Below, piece by piece: positions 2-6,208 of a DNA stretch of 6,208 bases. Under the pieces are notes generated by a model. That model made no database searches and was not told where the DNA came from. It saw nothing but the letters and a program-made list of their open reading frames with translations. Position 1 is the first letter of the stretch; each line of letters starts with the position of its first letter. The stretch is from Xanthobacteraceae bacterium (GTDB lineage: Bacteria; Pseudomonadota; Alphaproteobacteria; Rhizobiales; Xanthobacteraceae). The stretch spans positions 1 through 6,208 of the forward strand of contig JASHVC010000141.1 of NCBI GenBank assembly GCA_030039655.1, given 5' to 3'. Made by a program: the position numbers and the translations under genes.

Positions 2-1315
2 GACGTTGGAGGCTTGGTGCCAGGCTCATCCGGAGCGGCAGCGCGCGAAATCTACCACGACGGCCTGTTACTGCCGCCGGTGCGCTTCCAGACCGAGGCG
101 GGCATCGAAGAGTCGATCGAGGCGATCATCGCCAACAACAGCCGCGTCAGCGAAGTCGTGCTTGGCGATCTGCGCGCGCAGGTCGGCTGCACACGCATCG
201 GTGTCGCGAAGCTCACGGCCTTGTGTGAGGAATATGGACGGGACACGGTCAGTTCGGTGATGACGAGCCTGATGACCATGACCGAACGCCGTGTTGCCGC
301 CGAGATTGGAGGTTGGCCAGACGGCACCGCCGAGGCCGAAGCTTTTCTCGATCACGATGGTGCCGTGCGGGACCAACCGGTGGGGATACATCTGCGAGCC
401 ACCAAAGCGGGCGAACGGCTGCGCTTGGATTTTACCGGCACCGCGCCACAGACGCTCGGACCGGTCAATCTGGTGGCGCCGACCGGAGAGGCAGCGGCGC
501 TGCTTGCAGTGCTGGCCATGTGCGATCCAAGCATTCCGGTCAATTTCGGCCTGCGCGGCGTGGTCGATATCGTGCAACCGGAAGGTTCGGTGATCAACGC
601 GCGCCATCCCGCGACGGTCAATCTCTACTTTCCGACGGCGCATCTTCTTTATAACACTGTGCTCGCGGCACTGGGCGACATTAATCCTGCACGTGCAGTC
701 GCGTCATCGGGTCTCGGCTCAGGCGCGGTCACGATCGGCTACCGCAAATCGCGTAGTGGCAAGCCCGCTGTGCTCTATGAACTTCTCAATAGCTCGTTGG
801 GCGGCACGAGCAGCGGCGACGGCGCTGCGATTGTGATGGCGATGAATCATTTTACCCCGGGCGCGCCGGTCGAGATTTTTGAGAGTGAGTATCCGTTGCG
901 CGTGCGTGCCTTTGATCTGATTTGCGATTCTGCGGGCGCTGGTCGTTATCGCGGCGGCCTCGGCTATGCGCGTGAATTCGAGGTTCTGGAAGATAGTGTG
1001 TTGACGGTGCGCTCGTCCAACCACATTTTCGCGGCGCGCGGACAAGCTGGCGGACAATCACCTCGGGCATCGCGCGTTATCCTAAATCCGGATAGGACCG
1101 ACTGCGAGGAACTCAGTGCAATCGAAACCCGTCACCTTAAGGCCGGTGACGTAATCCGGTTTGAGCGGAGCGGAGGTGCTGGCTTTGGTGACCCTTCATC
1201 GCGCGCTCCTGAGGCCGTGAGGGACGATGTCCGTAACGGTTATGTCAGCGCGCCGGCGGCAGCCGACGCGTATCGTCAGCCGCGAGACGATAGCGAGCTT
1301 GATGGTGAGAGTTGA
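2..1315 (+). CDS. hyuB: N-methylhydantoinase B / HyuB family protein, 5'-truncated by the window
   Basis: This is the C-terminal part of a Hydantoinase_B family protein (beta-type subunit of ATP-dependent hydantoinases and 5-oxoprolinases, which usually works with a HyuA partner). The frame is open from base 2 and already reads DVGGLVPGS, an internal family motif followed by REIYHDGLLLPPVRF, so the TTG at 14 is not the true start and roughly 100-130 N-terminal residues lie outside the window. Further family landmarks in order are RLDFTGTAPQTLGPVN (about 420-470), HPATVNLYFPTAHLLYNTV (about 603-660), FESEYPLRVRAFDL (about 880-920), SAGAGRYRGGLGYAREFEV (about 929-985) and the C-terminal GDVIRFERSGGAGFGDP (about 1144-1194). 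The last corresponds to the usual GGGGYGDP-like ending, followed by a short tail, so the C-terminus looks intact. A HyuA-type gene would be expected upstream. The family is clear; the actual substrate (hydantoin, oxoproline or another amide) cannot be read from the sequence. Confidence 0.9.
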   Translation, partial: DVGGLVPGSSGAAAREIYHDGLLLPPVRFQTEAGIEESIEAIIANNSRVSEVVLGDLRAQVGCTRIGVAKLTALCEEYGRDTVSSVMTSLMTMTERRVAAEIGGWPDGTAEAEAFLDHDGAVRDQPVGIHLRATKAGERLRLDFTGTAPQTLGPVNLVAPTGEAAALLAVLAMCDPSIPVNFGLRGVVDIVQPEGSVINARHPATVNLYFPTAHLLYNTVLAALGDINPARAVASSGLGSGAVTIGYRKSRSGKPAVLYELLNSSLGGTSSGDGAAIVMAMNHFTPGAPVEIFESEYPLRVRAFDLICDSAGAGRYRGGLGYAREFEVLEDSVLTVRSSNHIFAARGQAGGQSPRASRVILNPDRTDCEELSAIETRHLKAGDVIRFERSGGAGFGDPSSRAPEAVRDDVRNGYVSAPAAADAYRQPRDDSELDGES

Positions 1316-1939: not shown

Positions 1940-2018
1940 TGGGTAACATGTCGCCGAGCGGGAATGTAGCGGATTTTGATTCCGACATTCGGAGGTTCGA
2001 TCCCTCCCGCCCCAGCCA
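1940..2018 (+). pseudogene. Degenerate tRNA-Gln(TTG)-like sequence
   Basis: The 3' half is almost canonical for tRNA-Gln: anticodon loop TTTTGAT at 1974-1980 (anticodon TTG), variable CATTC (1986-1990), T stem and loop GGAGGTTCGATCCCTCC (1991-2007), acceptor strand CGCCCCA (2008-2014), discriminator G and CCA (2016-2018). The 5' half is damaged. The D arm GCCGAGCGGGAATGT has two changes in its 3' strand relative to a GCC/GGC stem. The anticodon stem has a G-A mismatch (1969 with 1985). The 5' acceptor strand should be TGGGGCG, but the sequence is TGGGTAACATG at 1940-1950, which is four bases too long and mostly unpaired. I read it as a tRNA pseudogene or attachment-site remnant and not a working tRNA. 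Confidence 0.72.
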
Positions 2019-2019
2019 G
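1975..2019 (+). repeat. Left copy of the tRNA-Gln 3'-end direct repeat (att-like)
   Basis: This 45-bp segment matches 5382-5426 at 42 of 45 positions in the same orientation, differing at 1985 (A/T), 1989 (T/A) and 2015 (G/A). The exact core is the 25 bases 1990-2014, covering the T arm and the acceptor 3' strand. Integrases of islands and phages commonly use the 3' end of tRNA genes as attachment sites, so the pair is consistent with attL/attR. The island interpretation is inferred; the repeat itself is directly visible. Confidence 0.85.
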
Positions 2020-2245
2020 CCATGAGCATGGCAAACTTCGACACGTGCAAACTCACCCGGTCGGCAACCTCGCGCCATTGCTTCCTGGATGACGGAGTTG
2101 AGTGCCCTCTGGGCCCTCCGCCGAGTCTCGAGAAAGACCGGAAGTAGCTGCCCTTCCGAAGGCTCGGGATGCGCAGATCGCCCGTGCCGGGGCGCGTCTC
2201 CGAGTCCCAATCGCGATAACTGTCGCGCTGGGCAGAGCTGATCGC
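2020..2245 (-). pseudogene. IS256 (mutator)-family transposase fragment, frameshifted
   Basis: Reading the - strand from about 2245, one frame gives AISSAQRDSYRDWDSE, then TRPGTGDLRIPSLRKGSYF. This matches the N-terminal region of IS256-family transposases (typically RNGYRxRxWxTRAGTxxLxIPKLRKGSYFP). At about 2133 the match shifts to another frame, which continues FLETRRRAQRALNSVIQEA and then MARG, equivalent to the family's FLEPRRxAEKALxAVIQEAYxxG. Similarity becomes weak (VEVCHAHG, possibly from VDDLVxAMG) and ends at about 2020, immediately next to the CCA of the tRNA-Gln-like sequence. The catalytic DDE domain, the C-terminal two thirds and the terminal inverted repeats are missing, so this cannot be active. 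IS256-family assignment is good; the exact subgroup is not known. Confidence 0.75.
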
Positions 2246-2355
2246 GTCGCGGTCATCGTGGTTATTCCTTGCGTCCGCGTGGTTGTATCCCAATAAAACT
2301 TCGCCCAAAATCACCGGGGGGACTGCCTCCTGCCCGCCGTCGCCAGAGTCTGACG

Positions 2356-2369
2356 GCCGCCCTGGCGGC
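2356..2369. other. Short GC-rich inverted repeat
   Basis: GCCGCC at 2356-2361 pairs perfectly with GGCGGC at 2364-2369 across two central bases, giving in practice a 5-bp stem with a 4-base loop. It sits about 75 bases before the start of the glycosyltransferase cluster. There is no following T run, so it does not look like an intrinsic terminator; it could be a leader hairpin or chance in GC-rich DNA. Confidence 0.3.
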
Positions 2370-2425
2370 TAGGCAGCGGCGGCATACGCCACTATCGGGG
2401 ACCTGACCGATAAAGGATCAACACC

Positions 2426-2433
2426 AAGGAAGG
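2426..2433 (+). promoter_or_regulatory. Shine-Dalgarno-like AAGGAAGG before the GT2 gene
   Basis: AAGGAAGG at 2426-2433 is the only strong ribosome-binding-site-like sequence before the glycosyltransferase. It is 10 bases from the GTG at 2444, which opens the GT2 frame. It also lies close to an ATG at 2436 in another frame that would encode only a 36-residue peptide (MHCEDRVRGL...) ending at about 2546. The GTG is preferred because its product begins directly with the family's first beta strand. Confidence 0.5.
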
Positions 2434-2443
2434 CATATGCACT

Positions 2444-3379
2444 GTGAGGATCGGGTTAGGGGTCTGCGCCCGAGACGAAGGGTCGACGATCGTCGCCACT
2501 TTGACATCTATCGTCCAGTCCGCTTCTTTCGCGGCGGAGTCGTGTGACTGGCAGCTGATCGTGTGCGCGAATGGTTGCACAGACGGTACGGTGCAAGCAG
2601 TTACAGAATGGATCGAAGTCCAAGCGGACACGAGGATCAGCCTGTGCGAACTCGAAGACGCAAACCTTGTCGAGGCGCAGAGGGTTATTGCCGCGCGGCT
2701 CACTCAGCAAGGTGCTGACATTCTCGGATTCTTCGACGGGGATATACTGGTCGCGCCCGATTGCATCCCACGCCTCATGGAGGCAGCGGCAGATAAGTCG
2801 GTTCGGGCTGTGTACGCCACCTCAATCCCGCTCTCCAGCGGAAGCGAAACTCTGGTTCAGAGAATGTTGAACCAGTATGACCGCGACACCGGAGTTTTTT
2901 CGCGGAGAAAGCATCTGCACGGTCGTGCGTTTCTCGTAAAAGAATGGAATATCCCGCGAGTGTCACCGCCGCTCCTCGCCGATGACATATTTTTGTCATG
3001 CGACTTTCTGCTTCGCTATGGAGAGTGCTCAATCAAATTATGCCCTGAAGCAATTGTCTATTTCCATCAGGTGTCGACCATTACAGATTTCTATAGGTCC
3101 TACAAACGAAGGCGAATCGAACTTGAAAAATGCTTACAGCTGAATCCTCGCTTTGGGCTCCTACCACCGGACCAGCTAAACAGACGGGTCGTCTGGCGCA
3201 ATATAGCTGTCGAGCCCCCACAGGCGATCGCATTGTGGCTCGCCTTCTTTGCCCTCAGGCTTTATTTCCACGTCAGGTTTTTGGCGGAAACGTCCATGCC
3301 GTGGAGTTCCACTGTGTGGTCGCCGACGACTTCTACCAAGAAGCCCTTGCCGATTCCGAATACCGACGGTGGCCCATGA
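2444..3379 (+). CDS. Glycosyltransferase family 2 protein
   Basis: A 311-residue GT-A fold glycosyltransferase that should transfer a sugar from a nucleotide sugar to a lipid- or saccharide-bound acceptor at the cytoplasmic face. The N-terminus RIGLGVCARDEGSTI is the first beta strand with the nucleotide-binding loop. CANGCTDGT (41-49) is the usual N/D-x-S/C-x-D-G-T motif. FFDGDILVAPD (96-106) carries the DxD metal site D98-G99-D100. LLADDIFLS (177-185) is the ED/DD acceptor-side motif with the likely catalytic acid, and YKRRRIE (220-226) sits where processive members carry QxxRW. Residues 260-273 are hydrophobic and could anchor the protein to the membrane. The start is GTG, chosen because no in-frame ATG precedes the first strand. 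The last 35 or so residues (MPWSSTVWSPTTSTKK...) look unlike the family and may be a run-on after a rearrangement. The stop overlaps the start of the HAD remnant by ATGA (3376-3379). Donor and acceptor are unknown. Confidence 0.85.
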   Translation: MRIGLGVCARDEGSTIVATLTSIVQSASFAAESCDWQLIVCANGCTDGTVQAVTEWIEVQADTRISLCELEDANLVEAQRVIAARLTQQGADILGFFDGDILVAPDCIPRLMEAAADKSVRAVYATSIPLSSGSETLVQRMLNQYDRDTGVFSRRKHLHGRAFLVKEWNIPRVSPPLLADDIFLSCDFLLRYGECSIKLCPEAIVYFHQVSTITDFYRSYKRRRIELEKCLQLNPRFGLLPPDQLNRRVVWRNIAVEPPQAIALWLAFFALRLYFHVRFLAETSMPWSSTVWSPTTSTKKPLPIPNTDGGP

Positions 3380-3569
3380 CTCCCACCCGACTGATTGCCA
3401 GCGACCTTGATGGGACGCTTTTGCGCAACGATTTAGCTTTTGCCTTCGTCACGGCGCGCCCCCCGCGAACATTAAGAACCTTGCCGAGTCGGCGGGTATT
3501 ACTGGCGTGGCAGTTTGCTCCATCGGCGCAAGCTACATTGTGAGCTTCCATTTCCACCAAGCGCCATGA
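3376..3569 (+). pseudogene. Remnant of a Cof-type HAD-superfamily hydrolase
   Basis: From the ATG at 3376 the frame reads MTPTRLIASDLDGTLLRND, which is the HAD motif I (DxDGT/L) N-terminus of Cof-like sugar-phosphatase-type hydrolases. It then jumps straight to FAFVTARPPRTLR, a segment that in intact members lies some 25 residues further on, so an in-frame internal deletion is likely near 3430. At about 3475-3477 the match moves to the next frame and continues NLAESAGITGVAVCSIGASY (3477-3536), where intact proteins have a VxGVAVCxNGA-like segment. That second frame ends at TGA 3567-3569, overlapping the GT11 start codon. Motifs II-IV and about 200 residues are absent. The relic is wedged between two glycosyltransferase genes with a 4-bp ATGA overlap on each side; it cannot be a working phosphatase. 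Confidence 0.75.
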
Positions 3570-4543
3570 TCCTCGGCCGATATACGCCGCACAGCGGCCT
3601 TGGAAACAAGATGACTCAGTTCGCGAGCCTATTCTCTCTCGCCGAAGATATTCGCTCTCCTCTACGAATACCGCCAATTCGGGGGTTTCCTTTAACCGAA
3701 AAGGTAACATGTTTGTTGTTGTCGGAAGAAAAAGCTCGGGCCGCCGACGCTAGCCCCATACCTGGACGCCACTACATAAACAGAGGCTGGAGTCGGCGCC
3801 TCTTGGGCCGCACAGTCGTTGCCCATCGGTCAAGCTATTTAGAAAACACATATAACTTTCATCACCATAAGGCCGTTCTGTCATCAATCTTTCGGCTTCC
3901 ATCGTACCCAGTTCGCGACTTCCGTTTCTATCAGGGGCCGCGTGACCGGCTGAAGCCTACCCACATCGGTTCAATTCGGCCAACTGACCTAATGATCTCG
4001 CTTAGGGTCGGAGACTTTGTCAGCAAGCCGGATGCGGACGAGAGATGGCGGCAATGCGTATATTCACGTTTTTTAGGATATTCGTATTTTAGGTTGATAT
4101 TGGAGCAGGTTGGCTTTGGCCGGCTTTTCATTACTTCTGACGAGCCGTTTCACGCGTTGACAGAAGATTTCGATCGGTTCGACCCAATTAGAGTCGAGAA
4201 TGAAGATCCAATAAAAACGATGGCTTTGGTACGACGGTTCGCCCGCATCGCCATCTCTGAAAGCACGTTCAGCTGGTGGGCGTCATACCTTAGTGACGCT
4301 GAAGAGATTTATTTTCCTATTTCGATAAGCGGCCTCTGGGGAATCAATGAGGCCTGGGATAAGGCGTCCGCCTGTTGGAAGCCGCTAAATCCGCTTAATG
4401 TCCGCGACTCTGATTTGTATTTTCGTGTGGACGAAGATCGCTACAGGTACGTTCATCAGGCTTCCGGTATTATCTACCGCTACCGTGACGCACCGGGAAA
4501 GCGAAGTGTAGATGAATTCGAGCGCCTAACTGTCGAAAAATAG
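3566..4543 (+). CDS. GT11-like glycosyltransferase (alpha-1,2-fucosyltransferase family)
   Basis: A 325-residue protein with the conserved blocks of glycosyltransferase family 11 (alpha-1,2-fucosyltransferases and relatives, GT-B fold, GDP-sugar donor). SGLGNKMTQFASLFSLAE (10-27) corresponds to the family's GGLGNQMFQYAxxxxLA. LMISLRVGDFV (142-152) corresponds to the HxRRGDY donor-binding motif, although His and the second Arg are replaced. LFITSDEP (187-194) corresponds to FxIFSDD, and ISESTFSWWASYL (230-242) is the diagnostic NSTFSWWGAWL-like motif. The ATG at 3566 is preferred over an upstream TTG at 3515 because family members begin only a few residues before the GLGN block; no strong Shine-Dalgarno site is visible, and translational coupling through the ATGA at 3566-3569 is possible. 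The gene is noticeably A/T-richer than hyuB, which suggests transfer. Fucose is inferred from family membership; another GDP-sugar is possible because the HxRRGD motif is altered. Confidence 0.75.
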   Translation: MILGRYTPHSGLGNKMTQFASLFSLAEDIRSPLRIPPIRGFPLTEKVTCLLLSEEKARAADASPIPGRHYINRGWSRRLLGRTVVAHRSSYLENTYNFHHHKAVLSSIFRLPSYPVRDFRFYQGPRDRLKPTHIGSIRPTDLMISLRVGDFVSKPDADERWRQCVYSRFLGYSYFRLILEQVGFGRLFITSDEPFHALTEDFDRFDPIRVENEDPIKTMALVRRFARIAISESTFSWWASYLSDAEEIYFPISISGLWGINEAWDKASACWKPLNPLNVRDSDLYFRVDEDRYRYVHQASGIIYRYRDAPGKRSVDEFERLTVEK

Positions 4544-4577
4544 GGTGCAGGCGCTATCAACCTCGGCGTTTCAGGAC

Positions 4578-4582
4578 AAGGG
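4578..4582 (+). promoter_or_regulatory. Ribosome-binding site AAGGG that selects the NDK-like start
   Basis: AAGGG ends seven bases before the ATG at 4590, an optimal spacing. An alternative in-frame GTG at 4545, only one base after the GT11 stop, would add 15 residues (MQALSTSAFQ...) that do not resemble the kinase family, so 4590 is the better start. Confidence 0.55.
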
Positions 4583-4589
4583 CATAGGG

Positions 4590-5129
4590 ATGAAGAACGA
4601 AGTAGTCCACGTTATGCTCAAACCTGATACGCTTGAACGTGGGATTCGTGACAAAATTGTTCGGGAATTGGAAGCAGTTGCCGGACCCGTATTTGTTGCG
4701 ACAAGGATGAGGCTGACGCTTGAGCAAATCGAAGCTATATACATCAGGTTCCCAAACCCTCACTCGAAAGACTTCGTATTCAACTATTTTACTTCACGAG
4801 ATACGGAACACTTGGCATTCTTAGGGTCGGGCGGCCTGCACGGCATAATCCATCGTATAAAAGGTGGGGTACGTTCTGGAACGGGAATTCGCGGTAAATA
4901 TTTCTGTAATTACATCCGTTATACGAAAGAGGACGTGGAGGCTTGGCTGCAAGGAACATCCAGTCGGGCCGAGGAGATAGACCTCGAAATGTTCGGCCGA
5001 GACATTCTCCACGTGGCAGACAATCAAGAGGACAGCATTCGTGGACTTCAGGCCGTTATGGGTCCGCGCTTTATCGACATAATGCGTGCGATGAGCGCCA
5101 ACGGCCACGACCCTTTCTCGCCGAAATGA
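4590..5129 (+). CDS. Divergent nucleoside-diphosphate-kinase-like protein
   Basis: A 179-residue protein with the outline of nucleoside diphosphate kinase, which moves the gamma-phosphate of ATP to NDPs through a phospho-His. VVHVMLKPDTLERG (5-18) matches the first strand with the K-P-D motif (K11 would contact phosphate), ATRMRLTLEQIEAIY (37-51) matches the AxRMxxLxxxxAxxfY segment, and SGTGIRGKYF (96-105) matches GTIRgdF with R101. DILHVADNQEDS (138-149) aligns with NxIHgSDsxesA, making H141 the catalytic His. Differences from ordinary NDK (about 140 residues) are a stretch of 39 residues between R101 and H141, against about 12 in the classical enzyme; Asn before the His replaced by Asp (D138); HGSD changed to HVAD; and a longer C-terminal tail. 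The last codons overlap the next gene as ATGA (5126-5129). It may be a specialised NDP/NTP-handling enzyme serving the neighbouring glycosyltransferases; activity is uncertain. Confidence 0.75.
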   Translation: MKNEVVHVMLKPDTLERGIRDKIVRELEAVAGPVFVATRMRLTLEQIEAIYIRFPNPHSKDFVFNYFTSRDTEHLAFLGSGGLHGIIHRIKGGVRSGTGIRGKYFCNYIRYTKEDVEAWLQGTSSRAEEIDLEMFGRDILHVADNQEDSIRGLQAVMGPRFIDIMRAMSANGHDPFSPK

Positions 5130-5386
5130 ACAAGGATGATGATTTCAAATTTCTCCAAATCAACTTGGAAGCAATAAATCGCCGTGGAGATGAAGCTGCG
5201 CTGGGTCGGCTGCGATATCACCTTGGGGTCATTTCCAACGCGGCGGTTCGATTCCAGCTTGGTATCAAAGCTGACATCGGACTAGACATCGCGAGCATTC
5301 GAAGCACCCGATGGCTTCTACGTTCACACAGACGCGATATGTTGTCGGAAACGCCAATTAAATCAACGGACTCTCACGGCCTTTGA
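5126..5386 (+). CDS. Small protein of unknown function, possibly truncated by the att-like repeat
   Basis: An 86-residue frame that starts at the ATG overlapping the NDK-like stop (ATGA), so it is probably translated by coupling. I do not recognise the family. The first half (MNKDDDFKFLQINLEAINRR to about residue 45) is helical-looking with alternating charge and hydrophobic residues, including LGRLRYHLGVISNAAVRFQL; the second half is Arg- and Ser-rich (RSTRWLLRSHRRD). There is no signal peptide, membrane segment or metal motif. Its TGA stop (5384-5386) falls inside the anticodon loop of the right tRNA-Gln-like repeat, so the natural C-terminus may have been lost or replaced when that junction formed. 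The context supports real expression; the sequence gives no function. Confidence 0.5.
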   Translation: MNKDDDFKFLQINLEAINRRGDEAALGRLRYHLGVISNAAVRFQLGIKADIGLDIASIRSTRWLLRSHRRDMLSETPIKSTDSHGL

Positions 5387-5425
5387 TTCCGTCATACGGA
5401 GGTTCGATCCCTCCCGCCCCAACCA
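5377..5425 (+). pseudogene. 3' half of a tRNA-Gln(TTG) gene
   Basis: CTTTGAT (5381-5387) forms an anticodon loop with TTG at 5383-5385. The flanking ACGGC/TCCGT strands (from 5376 and 5388) pair at four of five positions. CATAC, the T arm GGAGGTTCGATCCCTCC (5398-5414), acceptor strand CGCCCCA (5415-5421), discriminator A and CCA (5423-5425) follow. Upstream of about 5376 there is no D arm or 5' acceptor strand; the DNA there is the end of the small + strand gene. It is therefore a 3' fragment only, as left when an integrating element duplicates the end of a tRNA gene. Confidence 0.75.
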
Positions 5426-5426
5426 G
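5382..5426 (+). repeat. Right copy of the tRNA-Gln 3'-end direct repeat (att-like)
   Basis: Partner of the segment at 1975-2019 in direct orientation, 42 of 45 bases identical and 3407 bp away. The exact 25-base core is 5397-5421. Together the two copies bracket the IS256 relic and the glycosyltransferase cluster. To its right the DNA returns to an ordinary transporter-component gene on the other strand after about 130 bases with no recognisable content. Confidence 0.85.
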
Positions 5427-5554: not shown

Positions 5555-6208
5555 CTAAGCTGTCTGCAATCCTGCTCGCTGGATTGCACCTTTCGCTGCG
5601 GGTCCAGCAAGAAACTTCGCCAGTGCTTGTCCAGTGATGGGATCCTTTGCATTGATCGGCATGCCGGCGGTAATCACAGTGATGTATTGAACCTCGGCTG
5701 GCAGCGGGCCTATGAAGTCGATACCTTGTGACTTCACCAGTTCACTGATCTGTTGGAAACCGATTTCCGCCTCGCCGCTAGCGACGATGGTGCCAATTGT
5801 CCCGCCGGACGGAACGCTGCGAAGTTTCGTTTTTATGTCGGCGCCGATTCCCATGCGCTCGAATAAACCGGCAAGATAGACTCCACTCGGCCCCGTCGAG
5901 TAGCCAACGGTCCTGGCAGCAATCACCGCGTGTTTAAGCGAGTCCGCCGAGCTAATATCCGGACGCGGCGCTCCTTGGCGGACCGCGACCCCGATACCGC
6001 TACCGGCCACATCAAGGAGCCCGGTGGGCGCAATTTTCCCGATCTTGATGAGCTCTTCGATTGCCCCCTTCGATGCAACAACTAAGTCATAACACTCTCC
6101 AGCCTCCATTCGTTTAATGATGTCGACCGTTCCCGCCCAAGTGATAGCCGCTTTTCGTCCATTTGCTTGCTCGAACTGCGGTATTAGCTCAAGATAAGCC
6201 TCACGCAT
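5555..6208 (-). CDS. ModA-like periplasmic solute-binding protein, 5'-truncated by the window
   Basis: 217 residues of a type-II periplasmic binding protein of the molybdate-binding-like family (SBP_bac_11 type). In order, MREAYLELIPQFEQANGRK opens the first lobe, CYDLVVASKGAIEELIKIGK (about residues 39-58) is the DVVIxA-like segment, GIGVAVRQGAPRPDI (71-85) is the highly typical hinge region VGVAVRkGAPkPDI, GYSTGPSGVYLAGLFERMGI (102-121) and GEAEIGFQQISELV (144-157) follow, and IGPLPAEVQYITVITAGM (166-183) corresponds to GPLPxExQ near the end. The ATG at 6206-6208 is the last codon in view and is probably internal: homologous proteins have an export signal and first strand before this point. 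The stop is TAG at 5555-5557. The ligand may be a small anion or an organic compound; true ModA function is not shown, and no ABC permease or ATPase gene is in view. Confidence 0.85.
   Translation of the reverse strand: MREAYLELIPQFEQANGRKAAITWAGTVDIIKRMEAGECYDLVVASKGAIEELIKIGKIAPTGLLDVAGSGIGVAVRQGAPRPDISSADSLKHAVIAARTVGYSTGPSGVYLAGLFERMGIGADIKTKLRSVPSGGTIGTIVASGEAEIGFQQISELVKSQGIDFIGPLPAEVQYITVITAGMPINAKDPITGQALAKFLAGPAAKGAIQRAGLQTA

Follow-up and report, generated by a model that had tools for sequence, protein, structure and literature searches.

A 3.4-kb stretch between two worn tRNA-Gln(TTG) 3' ends in a Xanthobacteraceae contig: most likely one decayed piece of a genomic island or island array

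The window, by which we mean the whole 6208-bp stretch of DNA analysed here (contig JASHVC010000141.1 of a Xanthobacteraceae bacterium, apparently complete), opens within the gene hyuB and closes within a gene for a solute-binding protein (SBP). Between these flanks two same-strand remnants of a tRNA-Gln(TTG) gene enclose 3.4 kb of DNA, which carries a relic of an insertion sequence (IS), two glycosyltransferase-like genes of the families GT2 and GT11 and a gene for a protein resembling nucleoside diphosphate kinase (NDK) (Table 1). We consider this stretch to be, most likely, a decayed segment of a genomic island or island array, the ends of which are worn attachment sites at tRNA-Gln(TTG).

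The argument starts from the two repeats themselves: Positions 1975-2019 and 5382-5426 agree at 42 of 45 bases in the same orientation, exactly where a preliminary description of this DNA had placed them, and the chance expectation for such a pair, calculated from base composition, is about 1e-14. The repeat is also the longest (59 nt, 85%) of the four direct-repeat families reported for the window. Its identity as the 3' end of tRNA-Gln(TTG) follows from the intact genes of HyuB-related genomes, of which ARAGORN found one in five of six (at all five loci examined; none was found in the sixth genome). Compared with the native gene of genome G002 (locus L009; the gene of G615 at locus L077 gives an equal result), copy 1 is a pseudogene that agrees at 43 of 44 bases over tRNA positions 32-75 and has lost its 5' acceptor strand, acceptor-stem positions 2-6 all being different; the tRNA-Gln versions of G001, G003 and G005 are less similar to it (85-86%). 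Copy 2 matches the native gene at 44 of 49 bases when counted from tRNA position 27, and upstream of position 27-32 the agreement ceases (7 of 31 bases over positions 1-31). The preliminary description had taken both copies for the part from anticodon loop to CCA, which is right as to the tRNA-Gln(TTG) ends and as to copy 2, which starts in the anticodon arm, and wrong as to copy 1, which is nearly full. Its statement that neither copy is an intact tRNA was borne out: ARAGORN called no tRNA in the window, and the Rfam tRNA model reached 23.6 bits at 1949-2009, which is below its cut-off of 29 bits.

Copy 1 is probably a displaced copy and not the dead original gene, because two marks of the native locus are both absent from the window: The 900 bp upstream of tRNA-Gln, which are alike in 14 of 15 relatives with genomes of 5.5-8.8 Mb, have no counterpart there by tblastx, and the tRNA-Pro gene that adjoins tRNA-Gln at four of five loci of HyuB-related genomes is missing according to ARAGORN; the host lineage underlying this comparison is only approximate. 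With its more complete copy first, the enclosed DNA beyond the 3' end of that copy and then, on the same strand, a shorter 3' piece, the window has the geometry of a tRNA-integrated island; a small genomic island had been among the forms proposed in the preliminary description. Crossovers in the anticodon loop are standard among such islands (PMC4383910), and the islands that Islander finds at tRNA genes share with the window a downstream 3' fragment of the tRNA on the same strand whose limit lies in the anticodon arm (PMC4383910). A displaced fragment as defined by Islander is present in the window, although the other copy is itself a pseudogene; Islander takes tRNA genes as its starting point and checks for an integrase (PMC4383910), and the window has neither an intact tRNA nor an integrase.

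A survey of 46 genomes reveals how this tRNA end is used in relatives. It comprised seven genomes with known extra copies, 34 of the 47 genomes that matched the core pattern and five top matches; the core pattern starts at tRNA position 32 and therefore misses shorter fragments, and the survey itself was conducted with the whole tRNA. Seven hits that are or resemble other tRNA genes were dropped before counting, namely tRNA-Arg in G615, G336 and G441, tRNA-Thr in G599 and tRNA-Trp in G350 after checking, and those in G627 and G411 as presumed members of the tRNA-Arg class. All 46 genomes contain a full-length tRNA-Gln match (84-85% in G124 and G294, elsewhere higher), and 15 of them contain 23 partial copies in addition. 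Seventeen of these 23 start at tRNA positions 19-33 and three at 46-51, ranges that fall near the anticodon and T-stem subsites of Islander (PMC4383910), while the remaining three start at 5, 15 and 38; 19 end at position 75 and four at 67-72. The left limit of copy 2 thus lies within the start range of most partial copies. Polarity is as expected of islands: Among the 12 partial copies that share a contig with the full gene, ten lie downstream of it on the same strand at distances of 1.5-697 kb (P = 3.8e-5 against 1/4, the events not being independent), the exceptions being found in G511 and G490; a weak (82%) fragment of G511 lies 697 kb downstream of its own tRNA-Gln. The premise that tRNA 3' ends serve as integration sites accordingly holds for this very gene, since islands of relatives use the same tRNA-Gln end.

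Several types of recombinase adjoin tRNA-Gln in these relatives, because tyrosine integrases and large serine recombinases are both found beside it. On the Bradyrhizobium japonicum plasmid pS11L-1 a tRNA-Gln fragment precedes, by about 290 bp, a gene annotated as tyrosine-type recombinase/integrase, the product of which matches the PHROG integrase at 8e-22 and a Pfam profile at 25.7 bits, slightly below the cut-off of 27.1; relatives of this integrase occur in four of 40 genomes, in two of which (G336, G490) they adjoin tRNA-Gln or its fragment. Genes of large serine recombinases lie 347 bp downstream of tRNA-Gln in G002 (L036:8834-10624) and 224 bp downstream in G005 (L041:5505-7175). In G294 an integrase gene comes immediately after the fragments, and in G205 N-terminal integrase pieces do, for which reason both look like stacks. 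Upstream of the core, ten fragments from G468, G490, G033 and pS11L-1 carry the same conserved arm, about 100 nt long, and to judge from their sequences they belong to one element family whose members end alike. Between the two tRNA ends of G615 lie 15.8 kb, which contain a D5/DUF5906-type gene and a recombinase-like gene; those of G336 are separated by only 1.5 kb, occupied by a DUF6538 integrase-like gene in shortened form.

In three genomes the gene for a member of one protein family (491-555 amino acids, aa) was also observed downstream of tRNA-Gln(TTG) or its fragment, at a distance of 8-284 bp (L077:1409-2884, L079:1538-3205 and, broken into pieces, L105:2717-4118, all on the minus strand). 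The members at L077 and L079 yielded no significant match to Pfam, PHROG or NCBIfam, and conjugative plasmids of Bradyrhizobium encode relatives, annotated as 'hypothetical', near relaxase or conjugation genes. Invariant in five sequences are R358, K387, R471, H472, H494 and Y503, a set that looks like the signature of tyrosine recombinases. In a comparison of this recombinase-like family with integrases by hhalign the catalytic boxes were aligned (E 0.0075, at a probability of only 5%).

The window itself contains no detectable integrase, in agreement with the preliminary description: A Pfam scan of nine open reading frames (ORFs) gave no integrase match, and the best real match in a tblastn search with integrases from related loci had an E value of 0.14. 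Better-scoring matches that were set aside came from L096, in one case from a frame that contains the tRNA end itself and matches both copies (E 9e-4 and 0.002), in the other from an opposite-strand, non-integrase frame that matches 1826-2040 (E 0.005 and 0.015). Tycheposons, mentioned in PMC10872708, are likewise tRNA-associated elements with cargo; they bring a tyrosine recombinase, and the integrase queries from related loci found none in the window. The exact core pattern did not occur in viral contigs.

Segments of this kind exist elsewhere. The closest analogue is a 1.65-kb segment of G490 (L102:3712-5453), in which two same-strand tRNA-Gln 3' fragments 1.7 kb apart, with the full tRNA-Gln 95 kb upstream of them, flank a cargo gene (an ORF of 432 aa for an adenylate/guanylate cyclase) and no integrase was found; in contrast to those of the window, its fragments have the conserved arm. 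In G141 (L039:5241-6791) two tRNA-Gln copies, both nearly complete and the second with a changed 5' acceptor strand, lie at a distance of 1.4 kb around an ORF of 408 aa that is the sole one of at least 130 aa in the segment and has no family match; here, too, no integrase was found. In G667 a segment of 14.6 kb lies downstream of an intact tRNA-Gln, and no integrase was detected in the five of its 14 listed ORFs that were scanned, nor by tblastn.

Table 1. Features of the window, in order of position
Feature	Positions	Strand	Evidence and remarks
hyuB, hydantoinase B/oxoprolinase, 3' 437 codons (left flank)	2-1315	+	Pfam PF02538, 333 bits; 5' end beyond contig
Relic of type-1 glutamine-amidotransferase-like gene, rearranged	1492-1735	N-terminal part -, C-terminal part +	blastn and tblastx to Burkholderia arboris (L019)
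Copy 1, tRNA-Gln(TTG) pseudogene, tRNA positions 7-75	1950-2018	+	63/69 to native tRNA-Gln
Left direct repeat, core of copy 1	1975-2019	+	42/45 to 5382-5426
IS256-family transposase relic, N-terminal piece, two overlapping frames	2064-2260	-	tblastn E 1.5e-10 and 8e-6 to IS256 transposase of L020
GT2-family glycosyltransferase ORF, 311 aa	2444-3379	+	Pfam PF00535, 43.9 bits, above cut-off
HAD-hydrolase-like relic, weak, short	3376-3543	+	Pfam HAD, 14.4 bits (cut-off 27), E 0.051, on 3130-3543; relic reading by eye
GT11-like (fucosyltransferase family) ORF, 325 aa	3566-4543	+	Pfam PF01531, 25.3 bits (cut-off 23.9), on 3515-4543
Divergent NDK-like protein, 179 aa	4590-5129	+	
ORF of 86 aa, stop codon within copy 2	5126-5386	+	Relatives: only itself found
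Copy 2 and right direct repeat, tRNA-Gln(TTG) 3' fragment, tRNA position 32 (earliest 27) to 75 plus one base	5382-5426	+	41/44 to native over 32-75
SBP_bac_11 solute-binding protein, 217 aa (right flank)	5555-6208	-	Pfam PF13531, 124.8 bits; 5' end beyond contig

Turning to the enclosed DNA, the transposase relic mentioned in the preliminary description is present and can now be described as a short IS256 piece, which has 74-79% DNA identity to plasmid copies of IS256 among the best matches. Farther inward, the HAD-like relic has no match in NCBIfam, and the GT11-like ORF has 19 relatives apart from the window's own. A GT11 profile found none in 397 genomes of the order at E 1e-10, a search run without a positive control; in viral contigs the single-protein query found none and the profile two loci (37% and 25%), neither stretch of which encodes a relative of the NDK-like protein. 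The latter was found to belong to the NDK fold and is absent from the plasmids and phages searched. Its His141 is invariant in 19 aligned rows and corresponds to the 3vvt motif GxNxxHxSDS only in a second, insignificant stretch of 0.8 bits; it may mark the position of the active-site histidine of nucleoside diphosphate kinases. The GT11-like and NDK-like genes were observed as a seemingly conserved pair (3566-5129) on eight of 19 metagenomic contigs, the pairing having been judged from contigs of equal size. One contig with a GT11-NDK module, 28,116 bp long, encodes an NDK-like protein (P0021) that is 97% identical to that of the window. We found no literature that unites nucleoside diphosphate kinase, fucosyltransferase and glycosyltransferase in a metagenome gene cluster. 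The GT2 gene and the GT11/NDK pair probably serve to build or decorate a surface glycan.

Both flanks are cut by the contig ends. HyuB has 68-75% aa identity to seven loci from Beijerinckiaceae/Hyphomicrobiales and similar metagenome-assembled genomes, which places the window in an uncultured alphaproteobacterium close to these groups; none of the seven has an SBP match near hyuB, several of them ending shortly after this gene, and none has tRNA-Gln, two carrying tRNA-Trp or tRNA-Thr instead. The SBP reaches a best identity of 48% among 199 genomes of the family. Between hyuB and copy 1, the relic at 1492-1735 resembles a type-1 glutamine-amidotransferase-like gene and not a transposase; this product name derives from two matches (H10/H14), and we assume the gene to be of the DJ-1/PfpI type. 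The sequence indicates that its two halves, joined at about 1660, resulted from an internal inversion.

If the repeats are island ends, a reading that is well supported, both would have been made by site-specific recombination at the tRNA-Gln(TTG) gene: Elements would cross over mostly in the anticodon arm, so that the tRNA is restored at one end while the other keeps a displaced 3' fragment, and repeated integrations may stack segments with tRNA fragments between them. The 3.4 kb between the copies would then represent one stacked segment, which would have arrived through integration at tRNA-Gln and would now be immobile or nearly so; its integrase may have been lost or may never have lain inside the segment, and IS insertion and gene decay would have come later. 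Of the forms that the preliminary description had offered, a decayed island and a segment of a tandem array fit best, and a trans-mobilised element is possible.

Several observations weigh against this interpretation. Neither an integrase nor an intact tRNA is found in the window, and the conserved element arm of about 100 nt is missing from it (nhmmer with two arm models, up to E 10). Copy 1 starts at tRNA position 7, outside the anticodon arm, and is resembled among the 23 partial copies only by the one in G141 (5-75), its nearest counterpart, which ARAGORN still calls a tRNA, and less by the one in G256 (15-75). Of the four genomes in which the pS11L-1 integrase has a relative, two lack a tRNA-Gln fragment next to that gene. 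The GC content of the GT2, GT11 and NDK ORFs, at 0.496-0.548, is below that of hyuB (0.617) and the IS relic (0.623), which speaks for an island, but the step is not clean, as the SBP in the right flank has a rather low 0.558 and the inner HAD-like relic 0.581. Finally, tRNA-Gln is not a unique site and only one of several in the same genomes, as the control tRNA-Pro(CGG) has at least seven partial copies that by eye reach its 3' end (G141, G468, G589, G336, G546, G493).

What else might have produced two tRNA ends around 3.4 kb of DNA? An ordinary duplication or an IS-mediated rearrangement could have supplied the second tRNA piece, and the IS256 relic beside copy 1, the rearranged relic at 1492-1735 and the unusual left limit of copy 1 do point to non-specific rearrangement nearby; however, copy 2 has its left limit in the same anticodon-arm range as 17 of the 23 partial copies found elsewhere, and the segment shows island polarity. 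We consider this origin improbable. That unrelated pieces were joined at a conserved tRNA end during metagenome assembly is exceedingly improbable: The window is apparently one whole contig, its 6208 bp being also the length of the longest contig listed for its own GT11 and 86-aa proteins, yet each copy has its own substitutions relative to both the native tRNA and the other copy, and the 86-aa ORF that ends in copy 2 is listed on two contigs, which are perhaps not independent.

A different view of the same ends regards the segment as a passive cassette, that is, an integrase-less unit with a tRNA-Gln 3' end on either side. Resident elements that use the same tRNA would provide the integrases for its excision and insertion in trans, and additive arrays would result. 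It draws on the other short, tRNA-Gln-bounded cargo segments in which no integrase was found (G490, G141, G667), on possible helper integrases for the tRNA-Gln site in other genomes and on the recurrence of the GT11-NDK pair in metagenomes. On the other hand, no circular form, empty site or second copy of the cassette at another tRNA-Gln end is known, the segment is decayed inside and its repeats differ at three of 45 bases. For the window segment we regard this view as unproven and unlikely, and we continue to prefer the interpretation as a decayed island or array segment.

Among published systems, tRNA-Gln islands are already a known kind, and what is new here is this segment as a further member. 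The monopartite symbiosis integrative and conjugative element (ICE) of Bradyrhizobium, about 0.68 Mb in size, shares with the window tRNA-Gln as attachment gene and the order Hyphomicrobiales (PMC9174649); the window segment differs from it by its 3.4 kb and its lack of conjugation genes, and the likeness is drawn at the level of the tRNA-Gln gene (PMC9174649). In the main text of a paper on integration hot-spots in Sinorhizobium 'Gln' occurs nowhere (PMC11476347). An island of Methylophilaceae is marked by repeated tRNA ends (PMC10872708), and tRNA 3'-end duplication and additive islands are described for Alteromonas (PMC5217437); these published islands with cargo and recurring tRNA 3'-end repeats belong to other bacteria and other tRNAs, and the window shows one segment. 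Whereas each member of a tandem island array has its own tRNA fragment and integrase, the window offers two tRNA pieces and no integrase that could be found, the rest being hidden by the contig ends.

The finding connects a gene module probably concerned with surface glycans with tRNA-Gln as a site of repeated integration in Hyphomicrobiales, where other small segments with no detectable integrase are bounded by the same tRNA ends. A broader proposal, which we judge distinctly unlikely, would be that small integrase-less cargo cassettes of one to few genes form an integron-like store in this order, with tRNA-Gln(TTG) 3' ends as boundaries and co-resident integrases moving them in trans, the GT11-NDK cassette of the window being one of them. 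If such segments should be mobile, integrase-less islands could be read as passive cassettes and not as debris.

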